20,992 nt of DNA from a virus, in IMG/VR virus record IMGVR_UViG_3300021957_000391, positions 1-20,992 of that record, one strand, 5' to 3'. Of the stretch, positions 196 to 14,127 are shown piece by piece. The notes under the pieces are model-generated. The model was not told the DNA's origin and made no database searches. It saw only the letters and a list, made by a program, of their open reading frames with translations. A program made the translations under genes and the position numbers. Each line of letters opens with the position of its first letter. Position 1 is the stretch's first letter.

Positions 196-813
196 TTACT
201 TTAGAATATATACAGTATAGTCCCATAAATTATAATCATGTCTAATAACAAATTTTCTAGATAATTGTTCTTTTATAAACCAACTTAATTTATCTACAGA
301 TAGATGAAATAAATCATCTCTTTCATAGTCAACTTGTTTAGACATAACATTAAATATTATACCTTTATTTACATTATTAAATACTAAAGAAACTAATTTT
401 GTCATATGCTCAAACATTTCATTATGACTTAATGTTAATTTCTCAGTAAAAACTCCATTCATTACTGCACAATCTAGTTTTGGTAATGTCCACTCTTCTT
501 GTAGAATATCAATATTATGAAATACAGTTAAAGGATGTTTTTCAGCACATCTATGAAACATAGGTTTTGATAATTCTAAACCTTCATAATAATAATTTTT
601 ATCTTGTTTTACTAAATACTCATAATAGTGTGCTAATCCGCAACCAAAATCTAATACAGAATCTCCACCACAATACTCTACACCTTCAGTCATAATTCTA
701 TATCTAGTATCGGCATCTGCCTTATCTGGCCAATCAACACCTAGATGAGAATCTCCATGTTGTTTATAGCAATTTTCATAATAGTCAACTATAGCTTTAT
801 ACTTCATTATCAT
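196..813 (-). CDS. Class I SAM-dependent methyltransferase
   Basis: A 205-residue protein with a class I methyltransferase core. Motif I is VLDFGCGLAHY at about residues 53-63, the SAM-binding glycine loop. An acidic position follows in YEGLELS at about 76-82, and LDCAVMNGVF at about 113-122 fits motif IV. The N-terminal helix (YYENCYKQHGDSHLGVDWPD) resembles that of small phage methyltransferases placed beside sugar genes. The substrate cannot be read from sequence; a small molecule or glycan is more likely than DNA because no target-recognition domain is present. The 3' end of the preceding SGNH gene overlaps its start by 17 nt. ATG 807 (MKYKA) is an alternative start. No strong Shine-Dalgarno sequence is seen, so translation may be coupled to the SGNH gene. 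Confidence 0.8.
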   Translation of the reverse strand: MIMKYKAIVDYYENCYKQHGDSHLGVDWPDKADADTRYRIMTEGVEYCGGDSVLDFGCGLAHYYEYLVKQDKNYYYEGLELSKPMFHRCAEKHPLTVFHNIDILQEEWTLPKLDCAVMNGVFTEKLTLSHNEMFEHMTKLVSLVFNNVNKGIIFNVMSKQVDYERDDLFHLSVDKLSWFIKEQLSRKFVIRHDYNLWDYTVYILK

Positions 814-1504
814 ATCTTTTAAAATTAAAATGTTGTATTATAGAGTCTACTATAGTCTCTGCGGTTAAGTAATCAAAATGAAAACCATCTCTTGCGGTAT
901 CTATTTGTTCGTATGTAAATATTGTTTTGGACGGATATGTAGGATATGTAAAAGGTATTGTAGTATGATAAATATTAGGAAGTAAAGTATTTACACTATT
1001 AAAACAATCAAAAAATTCTTTATCATCATCATGAGAAGTAGTTAAAGGATCATAATGTATAAACTTCCACGGGTCTTCATAACGTCTATTACGATAACTC
1101 CACATAATTGCTATATACTTAGGATTATAGTTTGAAATAACTTGTTTAGCAATATTTAAAATTAAACGATTAGCAGCTCCATCTATACCTAAGTTTATAC
1201 ATCTCATTTTAGTTTGACTTTGAAGTATAGAAGGCCAGGTATGCTCAAAAGGAGCACCTAATCCTAAAGTAAAACTATCTCCTAAACACCATATTACATC
1301 ACTTAAATCTTTAGGCCATTCACTATCTCTAAAACCTCTAAAATTATAACTATAATTTATTCCATAAGGATAATTTATAAACTGTAGAGGAGTGCAATCA
1401 GGTTGTGTAATAGGATTTGATTTATTTTTTTGATTAGGAAAGCAATCCATACCATCTTCATTAATAGACATAGTACTTTTAAAAGTATAGTTTAAATAGT
1501 CCAT
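797..1504 (-). CDS. SGNH/GDSL-hydrolase-like protein, tandem copy 1
   Basis: A 235-residue protein with SGNH blocks. Block I is CLGDSFTLGLG (GDS near residues 75-77, Ser as nucleophile). A block II-like glycine segment is NLGIDGAANR. Block V is DGFHFDYLTAE, with Asp and His in the D-x-x-H spacing. Where block III normally has GxND there is MWSYRNRR. Residues 1-60 form an extension ending in YNFRGFRDSEWP. No signal peptide is visible, so the product is probably cytoplasmic or virion-associated. Family members hydrolyse or transfer acyl groups on sugars and other substrates; the substrate here is unknown. It is a paralog of the next gene upstream, and their ends overlap by 13 nt at a junction in which the first codons ATG-GAC-TAT overlap the end of the previous frame. 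Confidence 0.8.
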   Translation of the reverse strand: MDYLNYTFKSTMSINEDGMDCFPNQKNKSNPITQPDCTPLQFINYPYGINYSYNFRGFRDSEWPKDLSDVIWCLGDSFTLGLGAPFEHTWPSILQSQTKMRCINLGIDGAANRLILNIAKQVISNYNPKYIAIMWSYRNRRYEDPWKFIHYDPLTTSHDDDKEFFDCFNSVNTLLPNIYHTTIPFTYPTYPSKTIFTYEQIDTARDGFHFDYLTAETIVDSIIQHFNFKRYDNEV

Positions 1505-2196
1505 AGTTTATATTCTTTTTTAAAGTGTTGTATTATAGAGTCTACTATAGGCTCTGCAGTTAAGTAATCAAAATGATGACCATCTCTTCCTAGATCTAGT
1601 ACTTTATACTTGTATAAATTTTTAACAGGTAACTTATAAGTAAGAGGAACAACAGTATTATAAATAGTAGGCAGTAAAGTATTTATACTATTAAAACAAT
1701 TAACAAAATCTTTTATATCATCATTATCTGTAGCTGAAGAATCATAGTGTTTGAAGTTCCATGGGTCTTTATAACGTCTGTTAGGATAACTCCACATAAT
1801 TATCATATATTTAGGGTTGTGTTCGAAAACAATTTGTTTAGCAATATTTAAAATTAAACGATTAGCAGCGCCGTCTATACCTAAGTTTATACAACGTTTT
1901 TTAGTTTGACTTTGAAGTATAGAAGGCCAGGTATGCTCAAAAGGAACTCCCACTCCTTTTGTAAAACTATCTCCTAAACACCATACTACCTCATCTAAGT
2001 TATTAGGCCATTCACTATCTCTAAAACCTCTAGAATTTATACTATAAGAAATTGGATAAGGATAGTTAACCCAATCTTTAACAGAAGATAAAGGTTTTTT
2101 ATTAGGATTTGATTTATTTTTTTCATTAGGAAAGCAATCCATACCCGTGGTGGTAGATAGAGTATTTATTTTAAAAGGATATGTTAAATAGTCCAT
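1492..2196 (-). CDS. SGNH/GDSL-hydrolase-like protein, tandem copy 2
   Basis: A 234-residue paralog of the gene at 797-1504, matching it over the whole length. Block I is CLGDSFTKGVG, the block II region is NLGIDGAANR, the block III position has MWSYPNRR, and block V is DGHHFDYLTAE. The catalytic Ser, Asp and His are therefore all present. The central part (from FEHTWPSILQSQTK to LILNIAKQ) is almost unchanged from copy 1, also at DNA level, whereas residues 10-45 and 150-205 have diverged strongly. This is an uneven pattern for a simple old duplication. The stop overlaps the start of copy 1 by 13 nt, and its own start overlaps the end of the sulfotransferase-like gene by 13 nt, with the same junction sequence at both places. 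The substrate is unknown. Confidence 0.8.
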   Translation of the reverse strand: MDYLTYPFKINTLSTTTGMDCFPNEKNKSNPNKKPLSSVKDWVNYPYPISYSINSRGFRDSEWPNNLDEVVWCLGDSFTKGVGVPFEHTWPSILQSQTKKRCINLGIDGAANRLILNIAKQIVFEHNPKYMIIMWSYPNRRYKDPWNFKHYDSSATDNDDIKDFVNCFNSINTLLPTIYNTVVPLTYKLPVKNLYKYKVLDLGRDGHHFDYLTAEPIVDSIIQHFKKEYKLWTI

Positions 2197-3083
2197 AAAT
2201 TATCTTCTAACATAGCTCTATTATTTATTTGTTGTAAAGTAATTTTTTCAAAGTGATTAGAGGGATAATTATTATAAGTATCTAATAACTCTGTAAAGTT
2301 ACTTATATCTTTTATTTTCTCACTTAAAGTAATTTTTTTTAAAGGAAACTTATTTCTATGTATTAGTAACTCTTGGCGATTTAAAAAATCTATATAATCG
2401 GTAATATCTATAAATTTTAATAGGTCAGTAGTAGAGTACCTACTTAAATCACCATTACGTATACGTAAGGTATTAAATTTATTATACTCTTTTAAAGATA
2501 ATTCTTTATCAGAGGATATATTAAATTCATTTTTAAAAAAAGTATCAGGATCATTTATTAAATCTAAATGTTTTATTTTTTTGTATTTAGGAAAGTATTT
2601 ATCTGCCCATACATAAAAATTTTCAAAGTATTTTAAAGATTCTATAAAAGTACTATTATCAATAGTATAAGATGTTTTATTTTTATCAAGTAGGTAGTCA
2701 TACTTAGTATATACATTTAAAGAAGTTTTTTTAGTAGATTGATGAGTATTACAGTAACTAAGAACCGATTCAAAAGAACATCTATCAATTATATAAATAT
2801 CTTCAAAAAAATAATTACAAAATTTTAGATATTTTTTAGTATTATTACCAAATTCTAAAGATCTATAAGGAGAGCATCTTGCTATAGTACTAGTTGTATT
2901 AGTTGAAAGAGTTTTTATTAAAAAAGGTAGATCTAAAGTAAGATTACATAAATCATGATAATTTTTAGTGGGATGTCCATGATAATTTAAATATACAGTT
3001 AAAGATCTTTGAAAATAAGTACTACCTATTGCATCAGGAGTTAATACTAAAATTCTTTTTAACTTATCAAGATATTTTGACAT
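2184..3083 (-). CDS. Sulfotransferase-like protein
   Basis: A 299-residue protein. The start KRILVLTPDAIGSTYFQRSL has the beta-strand, loop and helix arrangement of the sulfotransferase 5'-phosphosulfate-binding loop (family form: TYPKSGTTWLQ). IYIIDRCSFESVLSY at about residues 95-109 resembles the 3'-phosphate-binding strand and helix, with Arg and Ser in place. The rest is charged and helical, with no membrane segment or signal peptide. Known relatives transfer sulfate from PAPS to sugars, lipids or other acceptors; the acceptor here cannot be told. AAGG lies about 7 nt before ATG 3083. The start overlaps the upstream 61-residue gene by 17 nt and the end overlaps SGNH copy 2 by 13 nt. A P-loop kinase-like protein is the main alternative. 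Confidence 0.55.
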   Translation of the reverse strand: MSKYLDKLKRILVLTPDAIGSTYFQRSLTVYLNYHGHPTKNYHDLCNLTLDLPFLIKTLSTNTTSTIARCSPYRSLEFGNNTKKYLKFCNYFFEDIYIIDRCSFESVLSYCNTHQSTKKTSLNVYTKYDYLLDKNKTSYTIDNSTFIESLKYFENFYVWADKYFPKYKKIKHLDLINDPDTFFKNEFNISSDKELSLKEYNKFNTLRIRNGDLSRYSTTDLLKFIDITDYIDFLNRQELLIHRNKFPLKKITLSEKIKDISNFTELLDTYNNYPSNHFEKITLQQINNRAMLEDNLWTI

Positions 3084-3252
3084 TTTTATACCTTTGTTCT
3101 ATCTCACATACTATTTGCCACTGTCTAGAAGTTAATTGTGGATGTTTTTGTTGAGCTTTTATACACCCTGATATAAAACTTTTCTCTTTATCAGTAAGTT
3201 CTTTGTCTTCAAGAAATATTTTTAATTCTTTTCTAATCCTTCGAGTTACCAT
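3067..3252 (-). CDS. Small helical protein of unknown function (61 aa)
   Basis: The product (MVTRRIRKELKIFLEDK, then ELTDKEKSFISGC, then PQLTSRQWQIVCEIEQRY) is predicted to be almost all helix, with a basic N-terminus. The layout 'helix - LT.KEK.FI - LTSRQW.IV.EIEQRY' resembles short phage and plasmid proteins in which two helices are joined by a loop carrying 'LS.RQ..IL..I...Y'. I do not recognise a named family. It overlaps the 54-residue gene upstream by 20 nt and the sulfotransferase-like gene downstream by 17 nt, so it is embedded in one transcription unit. A purine stretch (AAAAAATGG, with GAAGGATTAG inside its 5' end) makes ATG 3252 the simplest start. A small DNA- or protein-binding regulator is possible, without proof. 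Confidence 0.7.
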   Translation of the reverse strand: MVTRRIRKELKIFLEDKELTDKEKSFISGCIKAQQKHPQLTSRQWQIVCEIEQRYKNVKIS

Positions 3253-3397
3253 TTTTTATATCACTACCTATATTAAAATTGTTTGTATCGGGCAGATCAT
3301 AAATAAAGGGATCAATCTTCATTATTTCTTTCTTCCTAGCTTGAAACTCTTTTTCAAATTTCCAATCGTCATATTTATCTCTAATCCACTTGAGCAT
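3233..3397 (-). CDS. Small conserved-type phage protein, 54 aa
   Basis: A 54-residue frame begins at ATG 3397 and ends at TAG 3233-3235. The sequence begins MLKWIRDKYDDWKFEKEF, continues with QARKKEIMKIDPFIYDLPD, and ends GNSKD. A good Shine-Dalgarno sequence (AGGAGA) lies about 6 nt upstream of the ATG. The start overlaps the end of the 2OG-oxygenase gene by 17 nt, and the end overlaps the next small gene by 20 nt. The arrangement of an amphipathic charged helix followed by 'K.DPFIYD' is one I have seen in short hypothetical proteins of marine T4-like phages; its function is not known. The opposite-strand frame covering this place has no such support. Confidence 0.75.
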   Translation of the reverse strand: MLKWIRDKYDDWKFEKEFQARKKEIMKIDPFIYDLPDTNNFNIGSDIKNGNSKD

Positions 3398-3887
3398 AGG
3401 GATTCTCCTTAGGTGTTAAACATAAAGTGATTCTATAAAAATCACTTAAATTCATGATGCGATGTTTAACACCGCTTTTAATTAAATAACTATGTCCTTC
3501 TCTATAACGATACTGTTTATCATTTTCAAACTCTATAAAACTATTAGCTGTAGAGATAGAAGTTATAACACTATTGGCATAGACATTTGTTTGCTGCATA
3601 TCTACATGCCAAGGTATTTGATTTCTAGGCATTAGTATAGACAAATATAAATCATTTATATTTCGTATAGCAGTATGTTTTTTACAAGTAGTTAACCATC
3701 TTACAATACTTGGAAAATGTTTTATCATAGGAGAAGTATTACCTTCAGTTATAATATCAAAAGATTTCCAAGCATGATGACCATATCTTTCGTTAAATAA
3801 ATGATTACCCATAGTAAAAAACGATATAATTTTATCTAAATCCTCGCTACCTATTTTAGGTAGAGGAATCTGCTTGCAATTTGTCAA
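3381..3887 (-). CDS. 2OG-Fe(II) oxygenase-like protein (Asp/Asn hydroxylase type)
   Basis: A 168-residue double-stranded beta-helix protein. Iron ligands are visible as H94-x-D96 in IPWHVDMQQ and H142 in GVKHRIMN, and R152 in YRITLCL is the likely 2-oxoglutarate-binding arginine. The strands YLSILMPRNQIPWH and SYLIKSG fit aspartyl/asparaginyl beta-hydroxylase and other small dioxygenases. These enzymes hydroxylate proteins or small molecules using O2 and 2-oxoglutarate, releasing succinate and CO2; the substrate is unknown. It is one of two such enzymes in the window, and the other (6799-7371) is not close in sequence. It overlaps the nuclease gene upstream by 32 nt and the 54-residue gene downstream by 17 nt. 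No obvious Shine-Dalgarno precedes ATG 3887. Confidence 0.75.
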   Translation of the reverse strand: MTNCKQIPLPKIGSEDLDKIISFFTMGNHLFNERYGHHAWKSFDIITEGNTSPMIKHFPSIVRWLTTCKKHTAIRNINDLYLSILMPRNQIPWHVDMQQTNVYANSVITSISTANSFIEFENDKQYRYREGHSYLIKSGVKHRIMNLSDFYRITLCLTPKENPYAQVD

Positions 3888-4545
3888 AAGACAATCTCCT
3901 ATTCTTTAATAGAGGTAGAAAAGGTACAGCACTTTGTTCAAAAATAATAGGATCTGCATTATCAATTGTCATAACAATTGCAACATCTTGAATACCTGTA
4001 CCATACATTTCATTATGTGCTACTGCATATGCACATCCTTGAATATAATAATCAGTTATTTGTTTATTACTTTTCTTTTTCTTTGATGTTTTAAAATCTA
4101 TAATAGTAGGTTTTCCACGCCAAATACCTACCATATCTGTTCTACCAGCATATTTATATTTATTAGACCAAAGAACCTGTTCTTGTCCCCAAATCTCTTC
4201 TACACCTTTTTCAGTAGCACGAACTAAGTCACGACTCATTTGAATAACGTCTACAGCTTCTTTATATAATTCATCCCATATATCTTCACCATTGAAATGA
4301 CGTTCAGCATATTCATGTACTAAAGTTCCTCTATCAGTAGCTACTTTAGATACACGAGCAGCCTCTTCTTCTCCTACACGTTCTTTCCATTTCAATAACC
4401 ATGTTTGATCAGAAGTCTTACCTAGTATAGTTGTAATACTAGGATAAGAGCCATCTGGAGTATGATATGTTCTACCTGTTGGTAGTGTGTCAGTAGCACA
4501 ATCAGTAGTATAGGTAAACTTTTTTACTGTTTCCCAGTTATTCAT
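3856..4545 (-). CDS. PD-(D/E)XK superfamily nuclease (phage exonuclease-like)
   Basis: A 229-residue protein with the nuclease motifs of RecB/Cas4-like phage exonucleases. GTLVHEYAE (about residues 73-81) has the motif I His, YAGRTDMVG (132-140) gives the first metal-binding Asp, IIDFKTSKKKK (148-158) is the D-x-K core, and the helix with Q169 and Y173 (IQGCAYAV) completes the fold. The N-terminal YHTPDGSYPSITTILG segment is typical of these phage proteins ('YPSVTTVL'). Members cut or resect DNA during recombination, host DNA breakdown or end processing. It is the only clear DNA-metabolism enzyme in the window and sits oddly among modification enzymes. It overlaps the radical SAM gene by 8 nt upstream and the 2OG-oxygenase gene by 32 nt downstream. 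Confidence 0.85.
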   Translation of the reverse strand: MNNWETVKKFTYTTDCATDTLPTGRTYHTPDGSYPSITTILGKTSDQTWLLKWKERVGEEEAARVSKVATDRGTLVHEYAERHFNGEDIWDELYKEAVDVIQMSRDLVRATEKGVEEIWGQEQVLWSNKYKYAGRTDMVGIWRGKPTIIDFKTSKKKKSNKQITDYYIQGCAYAVAHNEMYGTGIQDVAIVMTIDNADPIIFEQSAVPFLPLLKNRRLSFDKLQADSST

Positions 4546-5536
4546 AATTAATCCAGTCAGTTAGGTTAGATTGAGAGTTACAATGTGCTATAAGTTCTTT
4601 TTTGTCGCTATAGTCAAGGCTAGAAATAGTATCAATAACTTTATTAATTTCTTCCATATAAGCACAGTCTAAATTTCTAGGACGTGTTAATGGAAATATA
4701 TTCCATTTTAAATTATTTTGTTTTATCCATTCTGACATATCAGGCATATCAAATATATTATTTTTATGTAAGGTAGTCTCTACCTTACATGAATACTTAC
4801 TAGCTATATCAATAGCATTTTTTTCTACAATTTTCCATACAGATCCAGAACGAACTCTATCATTAGTACTACCATAACCGTCAATTGACAACCAAAATTT
4901 TATTTGTTTAAAGCGATTAAATAATTTTATATCTATATCAGTTAAGGAGTGCATACAATTAGTTACATACTGTACTGTACATATAGAAGGATTAGGATGT
5001 AAACTTAATAATTCTCTATGTCGTAAAGTCTGTAAAGGTTCTCCTCCTTGAAACTCTATAAACTCTACTGTATTAGGTATGTAATTTATATCAGTATGTT
5101 TATATCCTTTTTTTATAGGAGTACTAGGATTTAATTTTTTAAACCAAGAGCTTGACCATTCAGGACCACACCCGTCACATGTTAAACTACAGATATTATT
5201 TAAACCTATTAATAAATATTTTAAAGACACACTATCGGTAGTATAATTTTTATTCCATTGATTTCTAAAAGATTCTTTACCTATTGATTCTTCATGAAAA
5301 CACTTAGAACATCCAGAAAGTTGTTCTTTATTAGCTTTATTTCTTAGGTCTTTATATACTTTACTATTTAATATATTTTCAGTATAAGACCCAATTGGAT
5401 GCTTAAATCGGCAACAAGGATAGACTATATTATCTGGTCTTACATTTATATGATTAAATAATGCCGCACAATTCGTATTGAGATTGAAGTTCTTTAAGAT
5501 CTTCGACTGTGTTGACAATAGGTTTTCCTTTAGCAT
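4538..5536 (-). CDS. Radical SAM protein with N-terminal auxiliary-cluster-like cysteines (twitch/SPASM type)
   Basis: A protein of up to 332 residues. The radical SAM cluster motif is C116-SLT-C120-DG-C123 (C-x3-C-x2-C), followed by FQGGEPL at about 163-169, the SAM-binding GGE motif, and LSIDGYG at about 217-223. Ahead of the core, C23, C41, C42, C76 and C79 (NCAALFNH, YPCCRF, GCSKC) look like ligands of an auxiliary Fe-S cluster, as in twitch/SPASM proteins, but placed N-terminally. Relatives modify peptides or carry out sugar and alcohol redox chemistry; the substrate here is unknown. ATG 5536 overlaps the carbamoyltransferase gene by 83 nt and lacks a Shine-Dalgarno; TTG 5518, with AAAGGA upstream, is a good alternative start and loses only six residues. 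Confidence 0.85.
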   Translation of the reverse strand: MLKENLLSTQSKILKNFNLNTNCAALFNHINVRPDNIVYPCCRFKHPIGSYTENILNSKVYKDLRNKANKEQLSGCSKCFHEESIGKESFRNQWNKNYTTDSVSLKYLLIGLNNICSLTCDGCGPEWSSSWFKKLNPSTPIKKGYKHTDINYIPNTVEFIEFQGGEPLQTLRHRELLSLHPNPSICTVQYVTNCMHSLTDIDIKLFNRFKQIKFWLSIDGYGSTNDRVRSGSVWKIVEKNAIDIASKYSCKVETTLHKNNIFDMPDMSEWIKQNNLKWNIFPLTRPRNLDCAYMEEINKVIDTISSLDYSDKKELIAHCNSQSNLTDWINYE

Positions 5537-6833
5537 TTAGACTTGTATTTATTAGAATAGATTGACCATGATTTTTACATTGATCTAAAATACGCCATAA
5601 AAAAATATTAGAATCTTGACTAACAACTTGTAGTCTAGCAGAATTATCGTAAGTATTAAATGGACCTTTTTTAATTTTAGATATATTTAACATATAAGGA
5701 CAAGCCTTAATTATATGAAACCATTCAGTAGCTTCTTCTACCTGACATATAGGAGCATAAGGTCTCCATGAATCTTCATCTCTATTTTTAATTTTATTTA
5801 ACTTTTTAATATTATCATCACTTGGCAAACATAGCAAACTACGATTTCCTAAAGCTCTAGGTCCAAATTCAGCTTGCCCCTCAATTACTGCAACTATTTC
5901 ACCTTTTAAAATTTTACTAGCATAGTCATTTGCATGTAGTCCTCTACTACTATCAACACCTAGATAAGGTGTAAAGTGTTTAGGTCTTTCAAGTAACGCA
6001 GCAGCACCTAAAGCACAGCCAGCATCTCCAGCTGCTGGTTGAATTGCTACCTCTTCAAAATTAGTCCAATTTAAGATTTCTGTATTAGCGACACAATTTA
6101 AAGCTACTCCACCAGCATATGCAAGTTTAGTCATACCTGTTTCTTGCTGTAACCAACTAGCCATATTAGCAATAATTGTTTGAGTAACATGTTGAACAGA
6201 TGCCGCTATATCCCAATCTAAAGTACCATAACCTACACCACGTTCTAGATCTTGTAATGCTGTGTAATCACCTTTATGGTCATAGTGTAAAATATTATCT
6301 TTGATATACTTAGACCATTTAGGAGTACCATAAGCTGCTGCTGCCATCACTTGTGACTCATCAGATAAAGGTTGTAATCCTAAAAATCTAGTAGCAGAAC
6401 TATAAAATAATCCTAATGAATTAGGATAGCGCATACGTCGTAGCCATGTAAATTTTCCTTTAGAATATACACCTAATGAAGTAGAAAATTTATTACCTAC
6501 AGTATCTATTACCATAACGGCGCACTCATCCCAATCAGTAGTAATTATAGAACTCATAGCGTGAGATTCATGATGATCTACTAATACAGGCTTAGCCTTA
6601 GTTACTTTTTTAATATCTCTTTTAAATCTTTTATAAGTTGTTTCCTCATAGAATACAGCATAGTCAAAATCTTCGTAAGCATTTTTTAACCAATTGATAG
6701 TATGAATTGGAAAATTATTATCATATTTATTACGAGAAAAACGTTCTTCATGGGATGCTCCCAAAATTATATTATCTTTTATGTTTGCGGCTGCACTATC
6801 ATGATGATAACAGCTTACTCCTAGTATGTTCAT
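5454..6833 (-). CDS. NodU/TobZ/CmcH-family O-carbamoyltransferase
   Basis: A 459-residue enzyme. The N-terminal Kae1-like domain shows GVSCYHHDSAA and VDHHESHA, the metal and carbamoyl-phosphate handling histidines, then VMVIDTVGN and YAGGVALNCVAN. The C-terminal YrdC-like part has EGQAEFGPRALGNRSLL and ends with ILINTSLNAKGKPIVNT, all conserved in NodU. The family moves a carbamoyl group from carbamoyl phosphate, via carbamoyladenylate, to a hydroxyl of a sugar or antibiotic; phage-type homologs can carbamoylate hydroxymethylcytosine. No hydroxymethylase or base-modification gene is seen here, so a glycan or small-molecule target is equally likely. It is shorter than many bacterial members (often over 550 residues) but complete in motifs. 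ATG 6833 is preferred over TTG 6836 because AAAGGT lies upstream at good spacing. Its 5' end overlaps the 2OG-oxygenase gene by 35 nt. Confidence 0.9.
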   Translation of the reverse strand: MNILGVSCYHHDSAAANIKDNIILGASHEERFSRNKYDNNFPIHTINWLKNAYEDFDYAVFYEETTYKRFKRDIKKVTKAKPVLVDHHESHAMSSIITTDWDECAVMVIDTVGNKFSTSLGVYSKGKFTWLRRMRYPNSLGLFYSSATRFLGLQPLSDESQVMAAAAYGTPKWSKYIKDNILHYDHKGDYTALQDLERGVGYGTLDWDIAASVQHVTQTIIANMASWLQQETGMTKLAYAGGVALNCVANTEILNWTNFEEVAIQPAAGDAGCALGAAALLERPKHFTPYLGVDSSRGLHANDYASKILKGEIVAVIEGQAEFGPRALGNRSLLCLPSDDNIKKLNKIKNRDEDSWRPYAPICQVEEATEWFHIIKACPYMLNISKIKKGPFNTYDNSARLQVVSQDSNIFLWRILDQCKNHGQSILINTSLNAKGKPIVNTVEDLKELQSQYELCGII

Positions 6834-7371
6834 CAAAGTACCTTTTGAATATATAAGTTAAATCTGCTTTAGTTTTATTTGAGTAGTTAGGTGTATCTAC
6901 AAAATCTACAAACGCCCATCTAAAGTTATCTACTATAGGCTGTATTCTATGAACCATAAAACAAGGAAATAATACTGTTTTTCCTGGCTTAGGATATATT
7001 CTTGCTATTATATTATCAGGTTCAGGTGCAGAAAAATCTGTTTCTAATACTCTATCACCTTTAGGATTCCAACTTCCTATTTCAAAAGGTTTTCCTTCTG
7101 TTAAATAAACCATATGAGTCCAAAAGCGTCCAGGTCTAGAAGTAGTAAGTCTTTTTTCTGCAAAATCTAGATTATCAAAATGCCATTCATAACCTTCTCC
7201 AGGTTTTAAAAGTATAGCTGATTTACCTGCAAACTCACATTTCCATTGATGTGCATGTTTTATATAATTTGCTGTGCAGTATTTTACAATCTTATCAGCT
7301 TTTTTAGCTATCTCCTCCGAAAATCCGATTTCAACTGCTCTTGTCCACTCATCTGCAATGTAATCTGCCAT
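6799..7371 (-). CDS. 2OG-Fe(II) oxygenase (prolyl-hydroxylase-like)
   Basis: A 190-residue dioxygenase. H64-x-D66 in EWHFDNLD and H141 in FPCFMVHRIQPI are the iron ligands, and R151 in NFRWAFVDF is the 2-oxoglutarate-binding arginine. The strand 'GKTVLFPCFMVHRI' is typical of P4H-like phage dioxygenases. The substrate is not deducible. GGAGGT lies upstream of ATG 7371 and supports this start, even though it makes a 64-nt overlap with the upstream SGNH gene. A second strong purine run, GGAGGAG, occurs inside the frame but no good initiation codon follows it closely. Lying between an SGNH gene and the carbamoyltransferase, it may hydroxylate the same acceptor later carbamoylated, since carbamoylation needs a hydroxyl; this is inference. 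Confidence 0.85.
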   Translation of the reverse strand: MADYIADEWTRAVEIGFSEEIAKKADKIVKYCTANYIKHAHQWKCEFAGKSAILLKPGEGYEWHFDNLDFAEKRLTTSRPGRFWTHMVYLTEGKPFEIGSWNPKGDRVLETDFSAPEPDNIIARIYPKPGKTVLFPCFMVHRIQPIVDNFRWAFVDFVDTPNYSNKTKADLTYIFKRYFDEHTRSKLLSS

Positions 7372-7937
7372 CTTTCAAATACCTCCGAAGCCAATCTCAA
7401 TGCAAGATGATTATGGCCATATTGATTTATATGCCCCTCGCCATCAGCATACTCCTTAGCTAAATCTCTTAAATAATATTCCCAAATACAGGGATGATCT
7501 TTTATCATAGGTTGTTCTATCATATTAGGTCTATATATAGGAATTAACATTAAATTACTAGGATTTGCAATTCCCAAAACAGCTTTTATGAATAAAGCAT
7601 TTGTTCTTTCATACCAAGACATACGAGTAATTTTCTTAAACCATATATCTTGTACTAGTTGACCCCATATATCTTTTTTATTAGACCAACCATAAGGAAG
7701 CAGGTATTCTCCATTTCCTTTAGGATCAGCCCTATGATGATGTCCGATTAACCAAATAACTTTAAAACGATTGACAAGATCATTCTCTATGATATAATTA
7801 GCTTGTGCATCTAAAGTTATACCTGGCTCTTCATAACGGTTTTTTAAACCTAATTGATCAAAAGCAGGTATAGGTGCTTTATCGCTTGGTATTGACCAAG
7901 AATTTCCTACTATAAAGATTTCATTATTTATGTTCAT
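7308..7937 (-). CDS. SGNH-hydrolase-like protein, variant with GNS in block I
   Basis: A 209-residue protein. Block I is FIVGNSWSIP, with Asn in place of the Asp of GDS but Ser kept. The block III position reads IWLIGHHHRADP. Block V is DGEGHINQYGHNHLALRLA, the usual 'H.N..G...LA' pattern, but Asp is four and not three residues before His. The Ser-His pair is therefore present, and the acid residue is displaced or supplied by Asp/Glu nearby. It may be an esterase or acyltransferase, or a divergent non-catalytic member. Its start codon lies 8 nt inside the start of the oppositely oriented SGNH gene at 7930, so the two are divergent with overlapping 5' ends. The end overlaps the 2OG-oxygenase gene by 64 nt. 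Confidence 0.65.
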   Translation of the reverse strand: MNINNEIFIVGNSWSIPSDKAPIPAFDQLGLKNRYEEPGITLDAQANYIIENDLVNRFKVIWLIGHHHRADPKGNGEYLLPYGWSNKKDIWGQLVQDIWFKKITRMSWYERTNALFIKAVLGIANPSNLMLIPIYRPNMIEQPMIKDHPCIWEYYLRDLAKEYADGEGHINQYGHNHLALRLASEVFERWQITLQMSGQEQLKSDFRRR

Positions 7938-8565
7938 TATTGCCTGTGGAGATAGTTATACACAAGGAGAAGGTCTTGAGAAACAAACTCAAGCCTATCC
8001 ATATTTACTAAGTAGTAATATTACCAACTTTGCTCAAAGTGGTGCTTCTGAATATCTTATTACAACACAAATTGAAGAAGCTGTCAAGCTAAAACCTGAT
8101 TTGATTGTTGTAGGGCATACCAGTGAATATAGATGGGAAGTATGGGATGCTCGAAATAAATGTCAACAAGGATTTATAGTAGCTAATCACATAATGAGAA
8201 ACGAAAAATACTATAGAAACTGGATACTATCCGAACAAATATTAGGTAATACTAGAAACATAAAAGAACATAAAGCTGCATGGCATGCAGCAGGAATGTT
8301 ATATTTTTCGGAACAACAACTAGTTCAACGTCTATGGAGTGGTGCAGTAGCCAAACAAATATTACTTGCACAAAGAGCTAATATACCTATGATTCATCAT
8401 TGTTGTTTTCCACATCTACAACCCTTACTAGAAGAATTAACGGATGATTATGTAGAATTTCATTTAGATTTAGAAAAACATAAAGACATGGCCCCAGACA
8501 ATTCTCATGCGGGGGCAAAAAGTCATAAAAAATTAGCGAAGTTGCTCATGGATAAATTCAGCTAG
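7930..8565 (+). CDS. SGNH/GDSL-hydrolase-like protein on the opposite strand
   Basis: A 211-residue protein with clear SGNH features. Block I is IACGDSYTQGEG at about residues 4-15, block II is NFAQSGASEY, the block III position is VVGHTSEYRW, and block V is APDNSHAGAKSHKKLAKLL with D-x-x-H. Catalytic Ser, Asp and His are all present. It is the only rightward gene between 1 and 13883. The beginning (ATGTTCAT) shares its bases with the start of the divergent gene at 7937, and its end overlaps the convergent gene at 8533 by 33 nt. No intergenic space is left for a promoter, so one must lie within the neighbouring coding sequence, or the gene was inverted in place. No Shine-Dalgarno is visible ahead of ATG 7930. 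Confidence 0.85.
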   Translation: MFIIACGDSYTQGEGLEKQTQAYPYLLSSNITNFAQSGASEYLITTQIEEAVKLKPDLIVVGHTSEYRWEVWDARNKCQQGFIVANHIMRNEKYYRNWILSEQILGNTRNIKEHKAAWHAAGMLYFSEQQLVQRLWSGAVAKQILLAQRANIPMIHHCCFPHLQPLLEELTDDYVEFHLDLEKHKDMAPDNSHAGAKSHKKLAKLLMDKFS

Positions 8566-9198
8566 GGCTTTAGTTGCTTTTCTATTAGGATGAACTTGAT
8601 CAGTAGCTGAAGCAAAATATTCAGGGTGTTCTTTCCAAAAATTATGTTTATGCTCCCAAAGTTCCCAAAGTTTCATTGCACCTCTTTTATCATTGTCTGA
8701 ATATTTTTCAAAGTGAGTGTAGTCCCCAAAAATAGTTGTATCTTCAAAATCAGGATAGAAAAATTCAGTGATACTAGGAATCTTGAGATAGCAATTAAAG
8801 TCAGGTTCAATTTTCTCTATACCGCCTAAAAGAATTAATTTATGTTTATACTGATCTAGTACCTTATATTCTAATTCTTTTACTAACTTAATTTTTTCAA
8901 ATAGATCAGTAGTAGTATATGCTCTATGATGTTCTGGAGTTAGATGTTTAAAATCTCGTGTAGCACAAGTCTTAACATATATAACAAAGTCAAACCCTAT
9001 TTCATGACTCATTAAACAACTTAAAGATACAAAATCACCCCAACCAGGATTAGCAGCGTGTGCTACTTCATGACCTAAATCTCTTAAATATCTAGATATA
9101 GAATATTTTTCAGCAAAAGCTCTGGTTTCTTCGGGAGTGAGAGTTGGATCCCACTCCCCTGCTGACCACGAGTCGCCTGTGACCATTATTCTAGACAT
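8533..9198 (-). CDS. SGNH/GDSL-hydrolase-like protein
   Basis: A 221-residue protein. Block I is MVTGDSWSAGEW at about residues 5-16, block II is HAANPGWGD, and the block III position is YVKTCATRDF. Block V is SATDQVHPNRKATKALAEFI, a fully canonical D-x-x-H-P-N arrangement. All catalytic residues are present, so an active serine esterase or acyltransferase is likely. ATG 9198 immediately follows the stop of the DsbA-like gene (9199); ATG 9186 (MVTGDSWS) is an alternative. No Shine-Dalgarno is clear, suggesting translation coupled to the upstream gene. Its 3' end overlaps the convergent SGNH gene by 33 nt, so the two mRNAs are complementary there. Confidence 0.85.
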   Translation of the reverse strand: MSRIMVTGDSWSAGEWDPTLTPEETRAFAEKYSISRYLRDLGHEVAHAANPGWGDFVSLSCLMSHEIGFDFVIYVKTCATRDFKHLTPEHHRAYTTTDLFEKIKLVKELEYKVLDQYKHKLILLGGIEKIEPDFNCYLKIPSITEFFYPDFEDTTIFGDYTHFEKYSDNDKRGAMKLWELWEHKHNFWKEHPEYFASATDQVHPNRKATKALAEFIHEQLR

Positions 9199-9435
9199 TT
9201 AGAGACACGCTGCTACAATATCTTTAATTTCTTCCCATTTTTCCTCTTCTTCTTGTAAATTTTCTTTACGAACAATGGTAGCAATTTTAGTAATAGTTGC
9301 TACAGGAATATCATATTCTGACTTAATATCTTTTTTAAGTTCATTAATAGACTCCCTAATTGCCTCACCTTGAATCATTAGATCTACAATACGTGAGATT
9401 TCTTTACGTAATTCTGCTTTTAGTGCTACTTCCAT
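9199..9435 (-). CDS. DsbA-like double-stranded DNA-binding protein of T4-type phages
   Basis: A 78-residue, highly charged helical protein. The middle, INELKKDIKSEYDIP, followed by TITKIATIVRKEN and an acidic end (EEEEKWEEIKDIV), follows the pattern I know from T4 DsbA (NELIKDIR...ELGVDG...LLALYHKDN...ETEEVVELYD). T4 DsbA binds double-stranded DNA and has been linked to late transcription. The similarity is judged by eye over a short length. AGGA lies about 7 nt before ATG 9435, giving a sound start. It sits 9 nt after the 113-residue gene and directly abuts the SGNH gene. Its presence is one of the better pointers to a T4-like phage genome. Confidence 0.6.
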   Translation of the reverse strand: MEVALKAELRKEISRIVDLMIQGEAIRESINELKKDIKSEYDIPVATITKIATIVRKENLQEEEEKWEEIKDIVAACL

Positions 9436-9444
9436 TTGTTTTTC

Positions 9445-9786
9445 CTAATTTATTAGTTGAAAGGTTTTTCTGATATTCTCAGGTCTTTTTCTTATAAGTT
9501 TATCTTCTGTAAATTTGTCTAAAATATTATTAAAAATATCATGACTTAATGCGGTTATATCATCAGACTTAGTTCCATCTACTAGCAATCTCTGATGAAC
9601 CATGTTCAAAGCAGTTATTAGATTTGCAGAACCAATAGCTCTTGAATCTTTATAATCTCCTTCAGTTCTTGTTTTTACTAACTCCCATGTTTCGTTTTCC
9701 CAAACAGTGTCGTCGTCCTCATCGAATACTTCGATGGGCATACCGCATAGAATTTTCCATACCATATCATCATATTTTGTTGTCAT
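9445..9786 (-). CDS. Small acidic protein of unknown function (113 aa)
   Basis: I do not recognise the family. The product is acidic near the N-terminus (IEVFDEDDDTVWENETWELV) and helical after residue 45, with ANLITALNMVHQRLLVDG, DIFNNILDKF and a C-terminal IRKTFQLIN. No cysteine clusters, membrane segments or catalytic motifs are visible. It is the first gene after the terminator at 9803-9832 and lies 9 nt before the DsbA-like gene, so the two are probably co-transcribed. In T4 the gene before dsbA is 33, the late-transcription co-activator of similar length, but I see no convincing sequence match, so this is only a positional hint. No strong ribosome binding site is seen before ATG 9786. 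Confidence 0.7.
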   Translation of the reverse strand: MTTKYDDMVWKILCGMPIEVFDEDDDTVWENETWELVKTRTEGDYKDSRAIGSANLITALNMVHQRLLVDGTKSDDITALSHDIFNNILDKFTEDKLIRKRPENIRKTFQLIN

Positions 9787-9802
9787 TATTCAATTCACTT
9801 AT

Positions 9803-9832
9803 AAAAAGAGCGTAGCTGTACCAGCTACGCTC
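9803..9832 (-). terminator. Rho-independent terminator for the leftward transcript
   Basis: A perfect 11-bp inverted repeat (arms 9808-9818 and 9822-9832, arm sequence GAGCGTAGCTG, 3-nt loop) is followed on the minus strand by five T residues (the A run 9803-9807 on the plus strand). The stem is GC-rich against an AT-rich background. It follows the stop of the 123-residue gene at 9853 by about 20 nt and lies before ATG 9786. It should therefore end or attenuate the leftward transcript from the SGNH array side, and the DsbA-like genes would need their own promoter or readthrough. Confidence 0.9.
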
Positions 9833-9852
9833 GCACACTCCCTACGGTCGTA

Positions 9853-10224
9853 TTAGGAAGCAATCCAATCATCGCGATAAGGGGATGCATAGAACCAAGC
9901 CAAAGCTGTCTCAACATTTTTAGACGGAGTTCTCCCATCTAAACACTGTTCAAACTCACGTTTGAAGCGTAGCCACGGATTTCTCATATTGTTTACAGGC
10001 TTGATCTGGTCAATCTCACGCTGATTCCAGTGAATACAACGATCCGCATAAGCTGCTTCAATGTTAAGTGAACGCGTAGACTCGAAGAGTTTATCTTTAA
10101 GTATTTCATACAGCTCTACAAAAGCTGCGCTTTTCTCTTCTTCACTCAGCTGTGAAACACATATTCGACGCGCGTTCCTTACTAGATCACGATAACCATT
10201 TTTTGACACAAGTTTAAAGTACAT
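9853..10224 (-). CDS. Unknown protein, 123 aa, less AT-rich than its neighbours
   Basis: I do not recognise this protein. It starts MYFKLVSKNGYRDLVRNARR, has a helical middle with SEEEKSAAFVELYEILKDKL, and a C-terminal part rich in Trp and aromatic residues (WNQREIDQ, NPWLRFKREFEQC, ALAWFYASPYRDDW). No known catalytic motif or membrane segment is visible. GAGGT lies about 6 nt before ATG 10224 and supports this start. The DNA is clearly richer in G and C than the surrounding genes (CGC, CGA and GCG codons are frequent), as is the next gene upstream to a lesser degree, which may mark separate ancestry. It is the last gene before the terminator at 9803-9832. Confidence 0.75.
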   Translation of the reverse strand: MYFKLVSKNGYRDLVRNARRICVSQLSEEEKSAAFVELYEILKDKLFESTRSLNIEAAYADRCIHWNQREIDQIKPVNNMRNPWLRFKREFEQCLDGRTPSKNVETALAWFYASPYRDDWIAS

Positions 10225-10276
10225 AATTTACCTCTTATTAATAGCATAGTTTATAGTTTGTTGCAAATAGAAAATT

Positions 10277-10591
10277 CTACCAATCAGAATCATCTACCAT
10301 TAGTTCCAGATACATTGGTGGGTAGCTAACTTTATCCCTTTTCCAAAATTCGTCGGGATTGTGATGTCTAAATCTAGGAAGCATACGCCAATGAGCATTG
10401 ATTCTACGTACTGCTGAATCATACTCTTCATGAAATAAATTGTCTAAATCCATACGGTCTCTAGCTTCTTCCATCCATTCATGACATTTCCACGGATTCC
10501 AACGTGAAACATTCTCAGCTTCTCGAATTGTACGTTTAATACCCCAGTCTGAATATCCTACGGCATTAAGTGGATTTACAACTCTATCCAT
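10277..10591 (-). CDS. Unknown protein, 104 aa, rich in Trp, Arg and His
   Basis: I do not recognise this protein. It begins MDRVVNPLNAVGYSDWG and contains SRWNPWKCHEWMEEARDRMD, then NAHWRMLPRFRHHNPDEFW and YPPMYLELMVDDSDW. The many Trp, Arg and His residues suggest a compact globular fold. An earlier in-frame ATG at 10624 would add 11 residues, but ATG 10591 has GGAAG about 6 nt upstream and overlaps the stop of the preceding 57-residue gene by 8 nt, so I prefer it. It is followed by a 52-nt gap and then the 123-residue gene, with similar less AT-rich composition. The function is unknown. Confidence 0.7.
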   Translation of the reverse strand: MDRVVNPLNAVGYSDWGIKRTIREAENVSRWNPWKCHEWMEEARDRMDLDNLFHEEYDSAVRRINAHWRMLPRFRHHNPDEFWKRDKVSYPPMYLELMVDDSDW

Positions 10592-10757
10592 TACTTGCTT
10601 CCTTCTCATTATTTCTATAATCAATTAGTATTTCAATAATATAGCGTGCAGCAAAAAACTCACCATAATCTTGTTTCATATCTTCATACTCGTCCATAAC
10701 AAACGGTGCATTTTGATAAAAGAATGTTTTTGCTTCACTTATAGTTGGTCTTTTCAT
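10584..10757 (-). CDS. Small protein of unknown function, 57 aa
   Basis: A 57-residue frame runs from ATG 10757 to TAG 10584-10586. It begins MKRPTISEAKTFFYQNAP, has acidic-aromatic DEYEDMKQDYGEF, a hydrophobic helix AARYIIEILIDY and ends NEKEASNG. AAGGA is placed about 5 nt before the ATG, a strong ribosome binding site. The start overlaps the end of the SGNH gene at 10735 by 23 nt, and the stop overlaps the start of the next gene by 8 nt, as is usual in this operon. No family is recognised. Confidence 0.7.
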   Translation of the reverse strand: MKRPTISEAKTFFYQNAPFVMDEYEDMKQDYGEFFAARYIIEILIDYRNNEKEASNG

Positions 10758-11343
10758 GGTGTTCCTTAATTATATTATATATTTTATCAGCTAACATAAC
10801 ATTTTCTTGTTTTGTCATGTGATTATTTAGTTCATTTTTAAAAGGTGTTGATCTCATAGCGTCTAAAGGTGTATCAGTATTTATACCATTAGAAAACGTA
10901 TAATAAATATCAAAACAAGGTAAATGTATAGCTACTCCTTTATATTTACTTAAAATTGCGTGGTCAAACCAATAAAGTTCTCGTTTAAAACGTTGTTTAG
11001 CTACAGGTATGTTGTGTAGATATTTATAATAAGCATAAGCAGCTTTTGCTATATTATTATGTAAACCTCCTAGCTTGTACATATGATTGTCTAGTTCCCC
11101 TACCATCGCTGAATACTCAGAATTTACGTATAATCTATTAGGGTCAGTCCAGCAAAAGATAGTATAATCAGCTGTATTGTCAAAGGTTTGAATAGCATGC
11201 TCATGAGCAGATCCAGGGTTGCCCCATCCTATGGTAGAAGCATTTAATTTATTAGCTAGTAGTATAGGCCACGAGAAACTACGATCAGCTACTTCAGGTA
11301 CTAGTTGACAAAAAGAGTCGCCACAAAAGTTGATAGTTTTCAC
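10735..11343 (-). CDS. SGNH-hydrolase-like protein, array copy 4 (last in transcript order)
   Basis: A 202-residue member of a four-gene tandem array. Block I is INFCGDSFCQ at about residues 4-13; the block II-like segment is GWGNPGSAHEH; the block III position reads FCWTDPNRLY; the block V region is ELNNHMTKQENVMLADKI. The catalytic His is kept, but the Asp three residues before it is replaced by Leu, with Glu at minus four. A Ser-His dyad, a Glu substitute or loss of activity are all possible. Translation starts at GTG 11343, overlapping the stop of the previous copy as GTGA (4 nt), which implies coupled translation. The substrate is unknown and no signal peptide is present. Confidence 0.75.
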   Translation of the reverse strand: MKTINFCGDSFCQLVPEVADRSFSWPILLANKLNASTIGWGNPGSAHEHAIQTFDNTADYTIFCWTDPNRLYVNSEYSAMVGELDNHMYKLGGLHNNIAKAAYAYYKYLHNIPVAKQRFKRELYWFDHAILSKYKGVAIHLPCFDIYYTFSNGINTDTPLDAMRSTPFKNELNNHMTKQENVMLADKIYNIIKEHHEKTNYK

Positions 11344-11930
11344 GATCTTTCCTTAATTATACTATATAGTTTATCGGCTAGTTCAAAATTCTCTTGCTCT
11401 GTAAAGTGGTTATTTAGTTCATTTTTAACATCTCTTGACCTCATAGCATTTAAAGGTGTGTCAGTATTTATACCATGAGTAAATACATGCTGAACATTAA
11501 AACAAGATAAGTGCACAGCTACTCCTCTATAGTTACTTAAAATTACGTGATCAAACCAGTATAATTCTCGTTTAAAACGTTGTTCAGCTATAGGTATGTT
11601 ATGTAGATATTTATAATAAGCATAAGCAGCTTTTGCTATATTATTATGTAAACCTCCTAGCTGATGAGAAAATCGGCGGCGCTGATTATTCATATTTGCT
11701 GAATAGTCAGGATTTACATATAACCTATTAGGATCTGTCCAACAAAAGACGGTATAATCAACAGTATCATCAAAGGTTTGGATAGCATGTTCAGGAGCAG
11801 AACCAGAACCACCCCATCCTGTAATAGAGGCATTTAATTTATCAGCTAGTAGTGTAGTCCATGACAGACTATAATTATTATCAGACTCTTTCTGACAAAA
11901 AGAGTCGCCACAAAAGTTAATTGTTTGCAT
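11340..11930 (-). CDS. SGNH-hydrolase-like protein, array copy 3
   Basis: A 196-residue paralog. It begins MQTINFCGDSFCQKESD; an ATG four codons further upstream (11942) is in frame, but the array copies all start at M-[QK]-TINF, so 11930 is chosen. It has GWGGSGSAPEH (block II-like), FCWTDPNRLY (block III position) and ELNNHFTEQENFELADKL (block V without Asp at minus three). A purine run, GAGAAAAA, lies before the ATG. Unlike the other array junctions, this copy is separated from the copy upstream by a 77-nt gap carrying a T4-late-like promoter element (11958-11965), so it may begin its own late transcript. It shares with copy 2 the KESD segment after block I and most of the core. Confidence 0.75.
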   Translation of the reverse strand: MQTINFCGDSFCQKESDNNYSLSWTTLLADKLNASITGWGGSGSAPEHAIQTFDDTVDYTVFCWTDPNRLYVNPDYSANMNNQRRRFSHQLGGLHNNIAKAAYAYYKYLHNIPIAEQRFKRELYWFDHVILSNYRGVAVHLSCFNVQHVFTHGINTDTPLNAMRSRDVKNELNNHFTEQENFELADKLYSIIKERS

Positions 11931-11957
11931 AATTTTTCTCAATCATTATTTATTAAC

Positions 11958-11965
11958 TATTTATA
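11958..11965 (-). promoter_or_regulatory. T4-late-type promoter element TATAAATA
   Basis: On the minus strand the gap 11931-12007 contains TATAAATA, identical to the late-promoter consensus of T4-type phages, 27 nt before ATG 11930. A TTGCAT 17 nt upstream could also let it act as a weak sigma70 promoter. The octamer is not rare in AT-rich DNA, but this is one of very few true intergenic gaps in the leftward arm and the element is at the expected distance from the start codon. Confidence 0.5.
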
Positions 11966-12007
11966 CAACTAAAAAGAGAATCATGCAATCATAAAATGAA
12001 TTCTGTG

Positions 12008-12598
12008 TTACATATGTTGTTTAATTATATTATATAGTTTATCAGCTAACATAGCATTCTCTTGCTCTGTAAAGTGGTTATTTAGTTCATTTTTAACATC
12101 TTTTGATCTCATGTCATTTAAAGGTGTATCAATATTTATACCATGAGTAAATACATATGGAATACCAAAACAAGGTAAGTGTATAGCTACTCCTCTATAG
12201 TTACTTAAAATTGCGTGGTCAAACCAGTATAATTCTCTCATATAACGCTGTTTAGCTATAGGTATGTTATGTAGATATTTATAGTAAGCATAAGCAGCTT
12301 TTTGTATATTATTATGCAAACCTCCTAGCTGATGAATTAAGTGATGTAGGTGTCCCATAATTGCTGAATAGTCAGGATTTACATATAACCTATTAGTATC
12401 AGTCCAACAAAAGACGGTATAATCAGCCTCTTCATCATAAGATCTAAAAACATGCTCATGAGCAGCTCCGGGACCACCCCATCCTAGGATAGAAACATTT
12501 AATTTATCAGCTAGTAGAGTAGTCCACGACAAACTACGATTATTAATATCAGATTCTTTTTGACAGAAAGAGTCACCACAAAAGTTAATTGTTTTCAC
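12008..12598 (-). CDS. SGNH-hydrolase-like protein, array copy 2
   Basis: A 196-residue paralog of the neighbouring array members. Block I is INFCGDSFCQKESD; the block II-like segment is GWGGPGAAHEH; the block III position is FCWTDTNRLY; the block V region is ELNNHFTEQENAMLADKL, again without the Asp of D-x-x-H. The start is GTG 12598, overlapping the stop of copy 1 as GTGA, exactly like the junction at 11340-11343; even the preceding bases (GGAAAGATC) are the same. The core from YKYLHNIPIAKQR to ELYWFDHAILSNY is nearly identical to copy 3. The gene ends at TAA 12008-12010, followed by the short promoter-bearing gap. Confidence 0.75.
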   Translation of the reverse strand: MKTINFCGDSFCQKESDINNRSLSWTTLLADKLNVSILGWGGPGAAHEHVFRSYDEEADYTVFCWTDTNRLYVNPDYSAIMGHLHHLIHQLGGLHNNIQKAAYAYYKYLHNIPIAKQRYMRELYWFDHAILSNYRGVAIHLPCFGIPYVFTHGINIDTPLNDMRSKDVKNELNNHFTEQENAMLADKLYNIIKQHM

Positions 12599-13176
12599 GA
12601 TCTTTCCTTAATTATATTATATAGTTTATCGGCTAACATAGCATTTTGTTGTTTTGTCATGTGGTTTGCAATTTCTAAAGTTTTTGGTACATTCATTTTT
12701 CCTGGATTATCTCTTAGTTTATTGATTGGAGTATTAATATTTATATGATTAGTAAATTTATATATAGTAGTAAAGCAGGGAATATGAATAGCTAATCCTT
12801 TATACTTACTTAGCACTATACTATCAAACCAATATAAATCTCTATTATATCTTTCTATTGCTAAATCCATATTGTGTAAGTATTTGTAGTATACGTTAGC
12901 TGCTCCGTATATACGATGTTTATGTTGATCATTTTCTGCTGAAACAATACTCAAGGGATACTTTACATGATATAATCTGTGAGGCTCTGTCCAACAAAAG
13001 ACGGTATAATCAGCCTTTTCATCAAAAGTTTTAATAGCGTGTTCATGTGCTGCTCCGGACTTTCCATATCCTATTATATTAACATTAAGTTTACTAGCTA
13101 ATAAAGTAGTCCATGCAACATCTGGATTTTTTGCAATCCTACAAAAAGAATCTCCACAAAAATTGATTGTTTGCAT
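12595..13176 (-). CDS. SGNH-hydrolase-like protein, array copy 1 (most diverged)
   Basis: A 193-residue paralog. Block I is INFCGDSFCRIA; the block II-like segment is GYGKSGAAHEH; the block III position is FCWTEPHRLY; the block V region is EIANHMTKQQNAMLADKL. It lacks about eight residues between block III and the YKYLHN segment compared with the others, and carries an extra KMNVPKT stretch before block V. It is thus the outgroup within the array. The Asp of block V is missing here as well (Ile at minus three, Glu at minus four), so this loss predates the duplications. Its ATG 13176 overlaps the stop of the sulfotransferase-like gene by one base (TAATG). Confidence 0.75.
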   Translation of the reverse strand: MQTINFCGDSFCRIAKNPDVAWTTLLASKLNVNIIGYGKSGAAHEHAIKTFDEKADYTVFCWTEPHRLYHVKYPLSIVSAENDQHKHRIYGAANVYYKYLHNMDLAIERYNRDLYWFDSIVLSKYKGLAIHIPCFTTIYKFTNHININTPINKLRDNPGKMNVPKTLEIANHMTKQQNAMLADKLYNIIKERS

Positions 13177-13883: not shown

Positions 13884-13906
13884 ATACTTATACTTCCGTT
13901 TTTGTG

Positions 13907-13935
13907 TTGACCTATTTATTTTGTTATTGTATAAT
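13907..13935 (+). promoter_or_regulatory. Sigma70-type promoter of the rightward arm
   Basis: TTGACC at 13907-13912 and a perfect TATAAT at 13930-13935 are separated by 17 bp, the ideal spacing. It lies in the only divergent gap (13884-13941). The start of transcription would fall near 13942, the A of the ATG of the first gene, so the mRNA may have no leader. Use by the unmodified host RNA polymerase suggests early or host-type expression of the rightward genes. Confidence 0.85.
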
Positions 13936-13941
13936 GACTTT

Positions 13942-14127
13942 ATGTATTTAACTGAAAAAGATTTAAAATTTGAGATTAGACAAGTTAACGCTACCATTAA
14001 TGAGTTAGCGACTGATCAAGCTGGAGATATTAGATACCTCCATCAAGAAGTGGTAGAACTAAAAGAACAAATTCAAATGCTCACTGAACAAGTAGAGTTT
14101 TTAAAGGATAAAATAAATGAGTCATAA
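13942..14127 (+). CDS. Small coiled-coil protein, 61 aa
   Basis: It begins MYLTEKDLKFEIRQVNATI and ends LTEQVEFLKDKINES. From about residue 25 to the end it has a heptad pattern of Leu, Val and Ile (IRYLHQEVVELKEQIQMLTEQV), predicting a coiled coil that would form dimers or bind a partner. The frame is open further upstream, but the strong promoter ends only 6 nt before ATG 13942, so the upstream part would not be transcribed. The stop overlaps the start of the next gene by 11 nt. No named family is recognised. It is the first gene of the rightward unit, and apparently has no Shine-Dalgarno of its own. Confidence 0.7.
   Translation: MYLTEKDLKFEIRQVNATINELATDQAGDIRYLHQEVVELKEQIQMLTEQVEFLKDKINES

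Follow-up and report, generated by a model that had tools for sequence, protein, structure and literature searches.

The marine phage fragment IMGVR_UViG_3300021957_000391 of the IMG/VR collection, analyzed over its entire length of 20,992 bases (hereafter the window), carries nine open reading frames (ORFs) whose products resemble SGNH enzymes, a superfamily defined by four residues. A Ser block (GDS or GNS), a short segment ending in Arg near the place of the GxND block and a late His had been ascribed to all nine by a first-pass annotation, and all ORFs as well as the quoted motifs were recovered in this analysis. Eight genes are encoded on the minus strand and one on the plus strand; their products are stand-alone single domains of 193–235 amino acids without fibre or spike parts. 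All-against-all comparison divided them into five subfamilies, A to E. Subfamily A (50–77% identity) consists of four tandem paralogues, namely A1 (also termed S6, 10735–11343), A2 (S7, 11340–11942), A3 (S8, 12008–12598) and A4 (S9, 12595–13176), which share the Ser motif CGDS and bear the Arg segments WTDPNR (twice), WTDTNR and WTEPHR. Subfamily B (66% identity) comprises B1 (797–1504; CLGDS with the Ser at position 77, WSYRNR, RDGFH) and B2 (1492–2196; CLGDS, WSYPNR, RDGHH). The remaining genes are singletons: C (7308–7937; VGNS, GHHHR and a late GH), the plus-strand gene D (7930–8565; CGDS, GHTSEYR including T64 and R68, PDNSH) and E (8533–9198; TGDSWSAGEW, KTCATR, DQVHPNR).

In order to delimit the family, relatives were gathered from viral contigs, and iterated hidden Markov model (HMM) searches were run over the ORFs of 245 loci. 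Profiles seeded with A or B reached D and E at E-values of 1e-22 to 1e-64 and converged at 205 and 203 sequences, respectively; when these ORFs were reversed as a control, no match at E<1 was obtained. Searches seeded with D or E stayed inside their own subfamilies, so that only the diverse profiles of A and B bring the four subfamilies together. For D, 104 viral relatives were confirmed. Direct profile-profile comparison, which had been proposed as a check, connected A with B (E 2.6e-5) and with D (E 3.1e-5) and weakly supported a connection of A with E, in which the GDS and the Arg segment are in register. The iterated C profile converged alone at 73 sequences, did not meet the A/B/D/E family in either direction and gave no match to the other subfamilies in the profile-profile comparison. 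Searches against Pfam returned sub-threshold matches to Lipase_GDSL_2 for B and D (E 1e-4 to 3e-3, with 1.3e-4 for B2 and 2.4e-4 for D) and to Lipase_GDSL for E (0.009); A and C had no Pfam match, none of the nine ORFs exceeded a curated cut-off, and PHROGs and Pfam by themselves failed to place A or C. Based on the profile evidence, eight of the nine ORFs (A, B, D, E) are assigned to one large viral family with a predicted SGNH fold. The single subfamily of nine suggested by the first-pass annotation thus shrinks to these eight, C showing no relation to them that profiles could detect.

Residue conservation was counted over the 205-sequence A/B/D/E family. The G and S of GDS were conserved at 100% (Ser in all of 203), the block II Gly in 98% of 204 sequences and the late block V His in 98% of 145 aligned sequences. 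At block III, the family possesses Thr (92%) or Ser (7%), followed four residues later by Arg (100%), which is therefore conserved as strongly as the nucleophile Ser. Among 68 representatives (70% identity clusters plus all eight window members), [T/S]xxxR was present in 66, and Asn was conserved at none of the three intervening positions; the block III Asn of GxND is lost in this family and [T/S]xxxR stands in its place. The modified block III is accordingly a strongly conserved feature of A, B, D and E, and its extension to C finds no sequence link. B, D and E possess the Asp of DxxH, three residues before the His, whereas C and the A copies of the window lack it; in A it was lost in 37 of the 43 representatives that belong neither to D, E or B nor to the type with GCS. 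A separate branch with GGCSFTFG for GDS and W[ST]xxSRYDW at block III was also observed (L165:15384-16193, L168:16350-17159 and L180:14922-15731), adjoining radical S-adenosylmethionine (SAM)/SPASM genes in T4-like contigs.

Structure prediction was applied to A and C. The AlphaFold2 model of S6, computed with 68 sequences, reached a mean predicted local distance difference test (pLDDT) value of 93.4 and a predicted template modelling (pTM) score of 0.90. Its top matches in the PDB were TesA and other GDSL enzymes (probability ~1.0, template modelling (TM) scores up to 0.58; TesA 5tif, E 5e-4), and a profile-to-PDB search retrieved the lysophospholipase L1-like esterase 9otv (E 2e-4) and TesA (E 3e-4). 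The order of elements in the model is that of SGNH enzymes, Ser10 following the strand 2–7, Gly44 the strand 35–39 and T66–R70 the strand 60–65, with H175 preceding the last helix. Based on this model, A is predicted to adopt the SGNH fold. Alignment of the family with Escherichia coli TesA by hhalign paired CWTDPNR with GGNDGLR: with a two-residue gap, Thr66 falls on Asn73 and Arg70 on TesA Arg77, and read ungapped from the strand, Pro68 falls on Asn73. Judged from these alignments, the block III Asn is gone under either register. Block V of E (DQVHPNR) aligned with DGIHPNR of TesA. Unrelated folds, or an Arg away from the active site, had been named as findings that would speak against the initial proposal; the model of A is SGNH-like with the Arg segment placed by topology only, and that of C is weak in this respect.

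The family of C shows almost no variation in GHHHR and has an invariant His169; a block II Gly could not be located in C. A second tandem C copy, present in three loci (L106:3-560, L108:13-600 and L230:4436-5023), reads GHFHC, the Arg being replaced by Cys. The AlphaFold2 model of C had a pLDDT of 80, with residues 68–85, beginning at the Arg segment, below 50. Its first three Foldseek matches were SGNH enzymes at weak E-values of 0.04–0.06 (best OatA, E 0.037), and hhalign of C against TesA gave no match. These data are suggestive of an SGNH-like fold for C.

The number of such genes in the window is unusual, as had been supposed: nine are present here, and at most four in any of the 244 other loci, while entire records of 34–139 kb contained one to four matches to the A/B/D/E family. 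Lineage-specific expansion applies to A and B, which were amplified locally from zero or one to four copies and from one to two copies, respectively; many phages carry one copy each of C, D and E, which are conserved. A single expansion of all nine genes was rejected in view of the five subfamilies, of C, which cannot be joined by sequence, and of the old singletons C, D and E. Of the distinct relatives offering 3 kb or more of room at the A position, between the gene h115 and ST2/DegT, 14 have no copy and seven have one; the window has four. In the phylogenetic tree, one clade (100/99) unites S6, S7 and S8 with the orthologue of S6 from L001, and S9, the older paralogue, lies outside. An assembly artefact was likewise rejected for the A array, the copies of which differ by 23–50% in protein. 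Relatives have one B gene, located between ST1 and a methyltransferase gene; in the window, B is duplicated. The sequence at the B2/B1 junction, CTATGGACTATTTAA, is a nearly exact repeat of that at the ST1/B2 junction, TTATGGACTATTTAA, which marks an in-line tandem duplication. B2 is the orthologous copy (88% identity to B of locus L028, in the same gene order), and B1 is an additional, faster-evolving copy that has diverged (63% to L028 B); its 3' junction with the methyltransferase gene is that of single-copy relatives. Two-copy tandem arrays of the family were also observed in other viral lineages (L196:9257-10612, L197 and L200:10001-11204).

The two arrays are bordered by genes designated ST1 (2184–3083, minus strand), the upstream neighbour of B that is syntenic in relatives, and ST2 (13176–13997, minus strand), which flanks the A array and directly adjoins h115 in relatives without A. 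Neither has a Pfam or PHROG match. Their N-terminal glycine-containing stretches (GSTYFQRS in ST1) resemble a sulfotransferase phosphate-binding loop, as judged by eye only.

At similar synonymous distance (dS 0.36–0.48), omega was 0.18 for the S6 orthologue pair, 0.39–0.41 among S6, S7 and S8, and 0.62 for B1/B2. The A and B paralogues are thus under relaxed or diversifying evolution and still constrained. A set of related activities, as raised in the first-pass annotation, is plausible in this light, since the paralogues evolve faster in protein than the orthologue at equal synonymous distance; for a variable recognition system or a multi-part complex, proposed at the same time, this analysis yielded no evidence. 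The fast divergence of the copies, together with the loss of the Asp in A and C, could also be explained by weakly active or dead SGNH-fold binders, i.e., a lectin-like, superinfection-exclusion or anti-receptor set whose recognition is diversified by duplication, which would correspond to the variable recognition system of the first-pass annotation. This explanation appears unlikely in view of the conservation of Ser, Arg, Gly and His across the family and of omega values below 1; moreover, no hypervariable segment or recombination signature turned up, none having been sought beyond the tandem copies.

The single-copy genes C, D and E are old and have been retained together as a block across dozens of related contigs from marine viruses. 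Considering loci with room on the contig, C adjoins D in 78 of 78, a 2-oxoglutarate (2OG) oxygenase gene in 70 of 70 and a carbamoyltransferase gene in 67 of 67 cases; C and D with the following 2OG oxygenase and carbamoyltransferase genes hence form a constant block, which E joins in part of the lineage. D is opposite in strand to its neighbours: its start overlaps the start of C head-to-head by 8 bp (7930–7937) and its end overlaps the end of E by 33 bp (8533–8565), an arrangement kept in relatives. In the window, the minus strand encodes the 2OG-Fe(II) oxygenase (6799–7371; PF13640, E 3.5e-7) and the NodU/TobZ-type carbamoyltransferase (5454–6836; PF02543, E 2.6e-42; PF16861, E 2.5e-37) of this block, and furthermore a SPASM Fe-S domain protein (4538–5536; PF13186, E 3.5e-6), an Asp/Arg hydroxylase-type 2OG oxygenase (3381–3887; PF05118, E 1.8e-9) and, as a conserved neighbour, a DsbA-like (T4-type) transcription regulator (9199–9435; PF11126, E 8.8e-4; phrog_639, E 4.3e-7). 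Radical SAM and SPASM proteins, a DegT aminotransferase, an epimerase, WbqC and a methyltransferase are also among the neighbours of the nine ORFs. A distant T4-like lineage (L168, gp23 present) repeats the combination of SGNH, SPASM radical SAM, carbamoyltransferase and DegT genes. Moreover, the cultured Pelagibacter phage Mosig encodes a hypothetical protein, Mosig_00086, which shares with the window proteins a segment of this kind (WTQNQR), the late His and an adjoining aminotransferase and carbamoyltransferase; a MoaA-like protein is also adjacent and VrlC is close by. It differs in being single-copy, in having GCS (Cys for the Asp of GDS) and in its length of about 246 amino acids. In pelagimyophages, the VrlC-gp14 island is a host-recognition cluster rich in lipopolysaccharide (LPS) genes (PMC7029224). 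The setting in Mosig and the repeated neighbourhood support glycan tailoring without proving it.

Carbamoyltransferase and 2OG oxygenase, as the constant neighbours of C, could alternatively serve phage DNA modification, in which they would make hypermodified bases such as 5-carbamoyloxymethylcytosine and the SGNH-like proteins would complete or undo an acylation of the base. 5-Hydroxymethylcytosine is a known substrate of phage carbamoyltransferases from these Pfam families (PMC8670742). That system, however, pairs with a thymidylate synthase homologue (deoxycytidine monophosphate hydroxymethylase), and PF00303 was not detected in any of 11 related records, among them contigs of 111 and 139 kb; all of these records are fragments. 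In addition, the 2OG oxygenase belongs to PF13640 and was not matched as TET/JBP, and DegT, the epimerase and WbqC point to sugars; DNA modification is therefore regarded as improbable. Least probable among the explanations weighed are virion-borne, tail-associated depolymerases or deacetylases removing O-acetyl groups from host capsule or LPS, since the nine proteins lack fibre or spike parts, none of them matched a tail-family PHROG and their neighbours are metabolic enzymes, although SGNH domains are known in phage tail proteins, two of 68 family members weakly matched a tail-fibre PHROG and the Mosig copy lies near VrlC.

Members of the family occur widely among viruses of aquatic habitats. 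Searches of GenBank phages by tblastn/megablast with A, B and E of the window and with the region, as well as with two further family members, gave no match, and D retrieved chance pieces in Klebsiella phages only. The family was absent at E<=0.001 from pelagiphage HTVC008M, cyanophage S-SSM7 and AG-345-L05. A scan of GTDB genomes with two short peptide patterns of A returned no relative, which leaves room for bacterial homologues. A viral-contig scan with B's own conserved peptides was empty because the chosen patterns sit in the variable N-terminal part, and the relatives of B came via loci found with other queries. Regarding the host, a permuted two-piece transfer-messenger RNA (tmRNA) of alphaproteobacterial type was identified at 18971–19349 on the plus strand (RF01849, 102.8 bits; RF04321, 113.7 bits). 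It encodes the tag ANDNFAPTGYALAA, and several relatives possess a tmRNA at the same place with varied tags (ANNNFAPTGYALAA, ANENFAPKAYALAA and ANDNFVAEDYRQAA). The tmRNA type points to a host among the Alphaproteobacteria; tmRNAs of this kind have been described in marine myophages (PMC9004378).

The SGNH superfamily and SGNH domains in uncultured phages are already known. With the SGNH/GDSL superfamily (Pfam clan CL0264, e.g., E. coli TesA), the viral proteins share the fold of A, GDS, the block II Gly, the block V His and, in B, D and E, DxxH; they differ in the replacement of the GxND Asn by [T/S]xxxR and in the missing Asp of A and C. The nearest BFVD matches of the S6 model came from uncultured phages and were either unnamed or labelled 'SGNH_hydrolase domain', among them A0A6J5L776 (E 8.2e-10) and A0A6J5P3X5 (E 1.7e-10) of uncultured Caudovirales phages (TM 0.68–0.73). 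These are uncharacterised like the window proteins, but are not known to occur in such numbers in one phage. PatB1 of Bacillus cereus (DHHW family) sets a precedent for an oxyanion hole in which an Arg guanidinium stands in for the Asn; there, however, the Arg replaces the block II Gly, whereas the phage family keeps this Gly and has its Arg in block III (PMC9487903). The SASA/NanS sialate O-acetylesterases, like the phage family, lack the usual block III Asn, and NanS also lacks the block V Asp, but their block III reads (H)QGE instead of [T/S]xxxR (PMC9487903). Both the (H)QGE block and an Arg in place of the block II Gly are absent from the phage family. For [T/S]xxxR at block III, no precedent was found in the SGNH review (PMC9487903) or in literature searches.

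Taking residues, fold and neighbourhood together, we tentatively favour the interpretation that A, B, D and E are Ser-His(-Asp) acyl esterases or acyltransferases with a variant block III, which may well tailor a surface glycan or a similar metabolite, though this falls short of being probable. The proteins would most likely be soluble, and the invariant Arg, perhaps together with the Thr/Ser of [T/S]xxxR, may stabilise the oxyanion or hold an anionic acceptor. Carbamoyltransferase, 2OG oxygenases, radical SAM enzymes, DegT aminotransferase, epimerase and WbqC would be the pathway partners, and the target would most likely be a sugar or glycan that is placed on, or altered at, the cell surface by the phage. 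C and D, with E in part of the lineage, may serve a fixed step, and the accessory, duplicated A and B probably diversify the acyl group or its position. Several points weigh against this glycan-acylation proposal. A and C lack the triad Asp, so that their catalysis would have to rely on a dyad; the block III register relative to TesA is ambiguous by two residues; the SGNH assignment of C is unproven; and the link to glycans rests on neighbours of broad specificity, as no gene of the window was recognised as a glycosyltransferase.

A further-reaching possibility, which we consider rather doubtful as a whole, is that these proteins represent a virus-specific SGNH branch with [T/S]xxxR as a new oxyanion-hole or anion-binding arrangement, tandem-amplified (0, 1 or 4 copies) to diversify glycan acylation alongside a carbamoyltransferase module. 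If true, a family that kept Ser, Gly and His, dropped the Asn in nearly every member and fixed the Arg would extend the known oxyanion-hole designs. With carbamoyltransferase and 2OG oxygenase genes as its constant partners, the family would offer a pathway amenable to testing in abundant marine phages; the locus with zero, one or four copies would provide a natural comparison for the role of additional copies.

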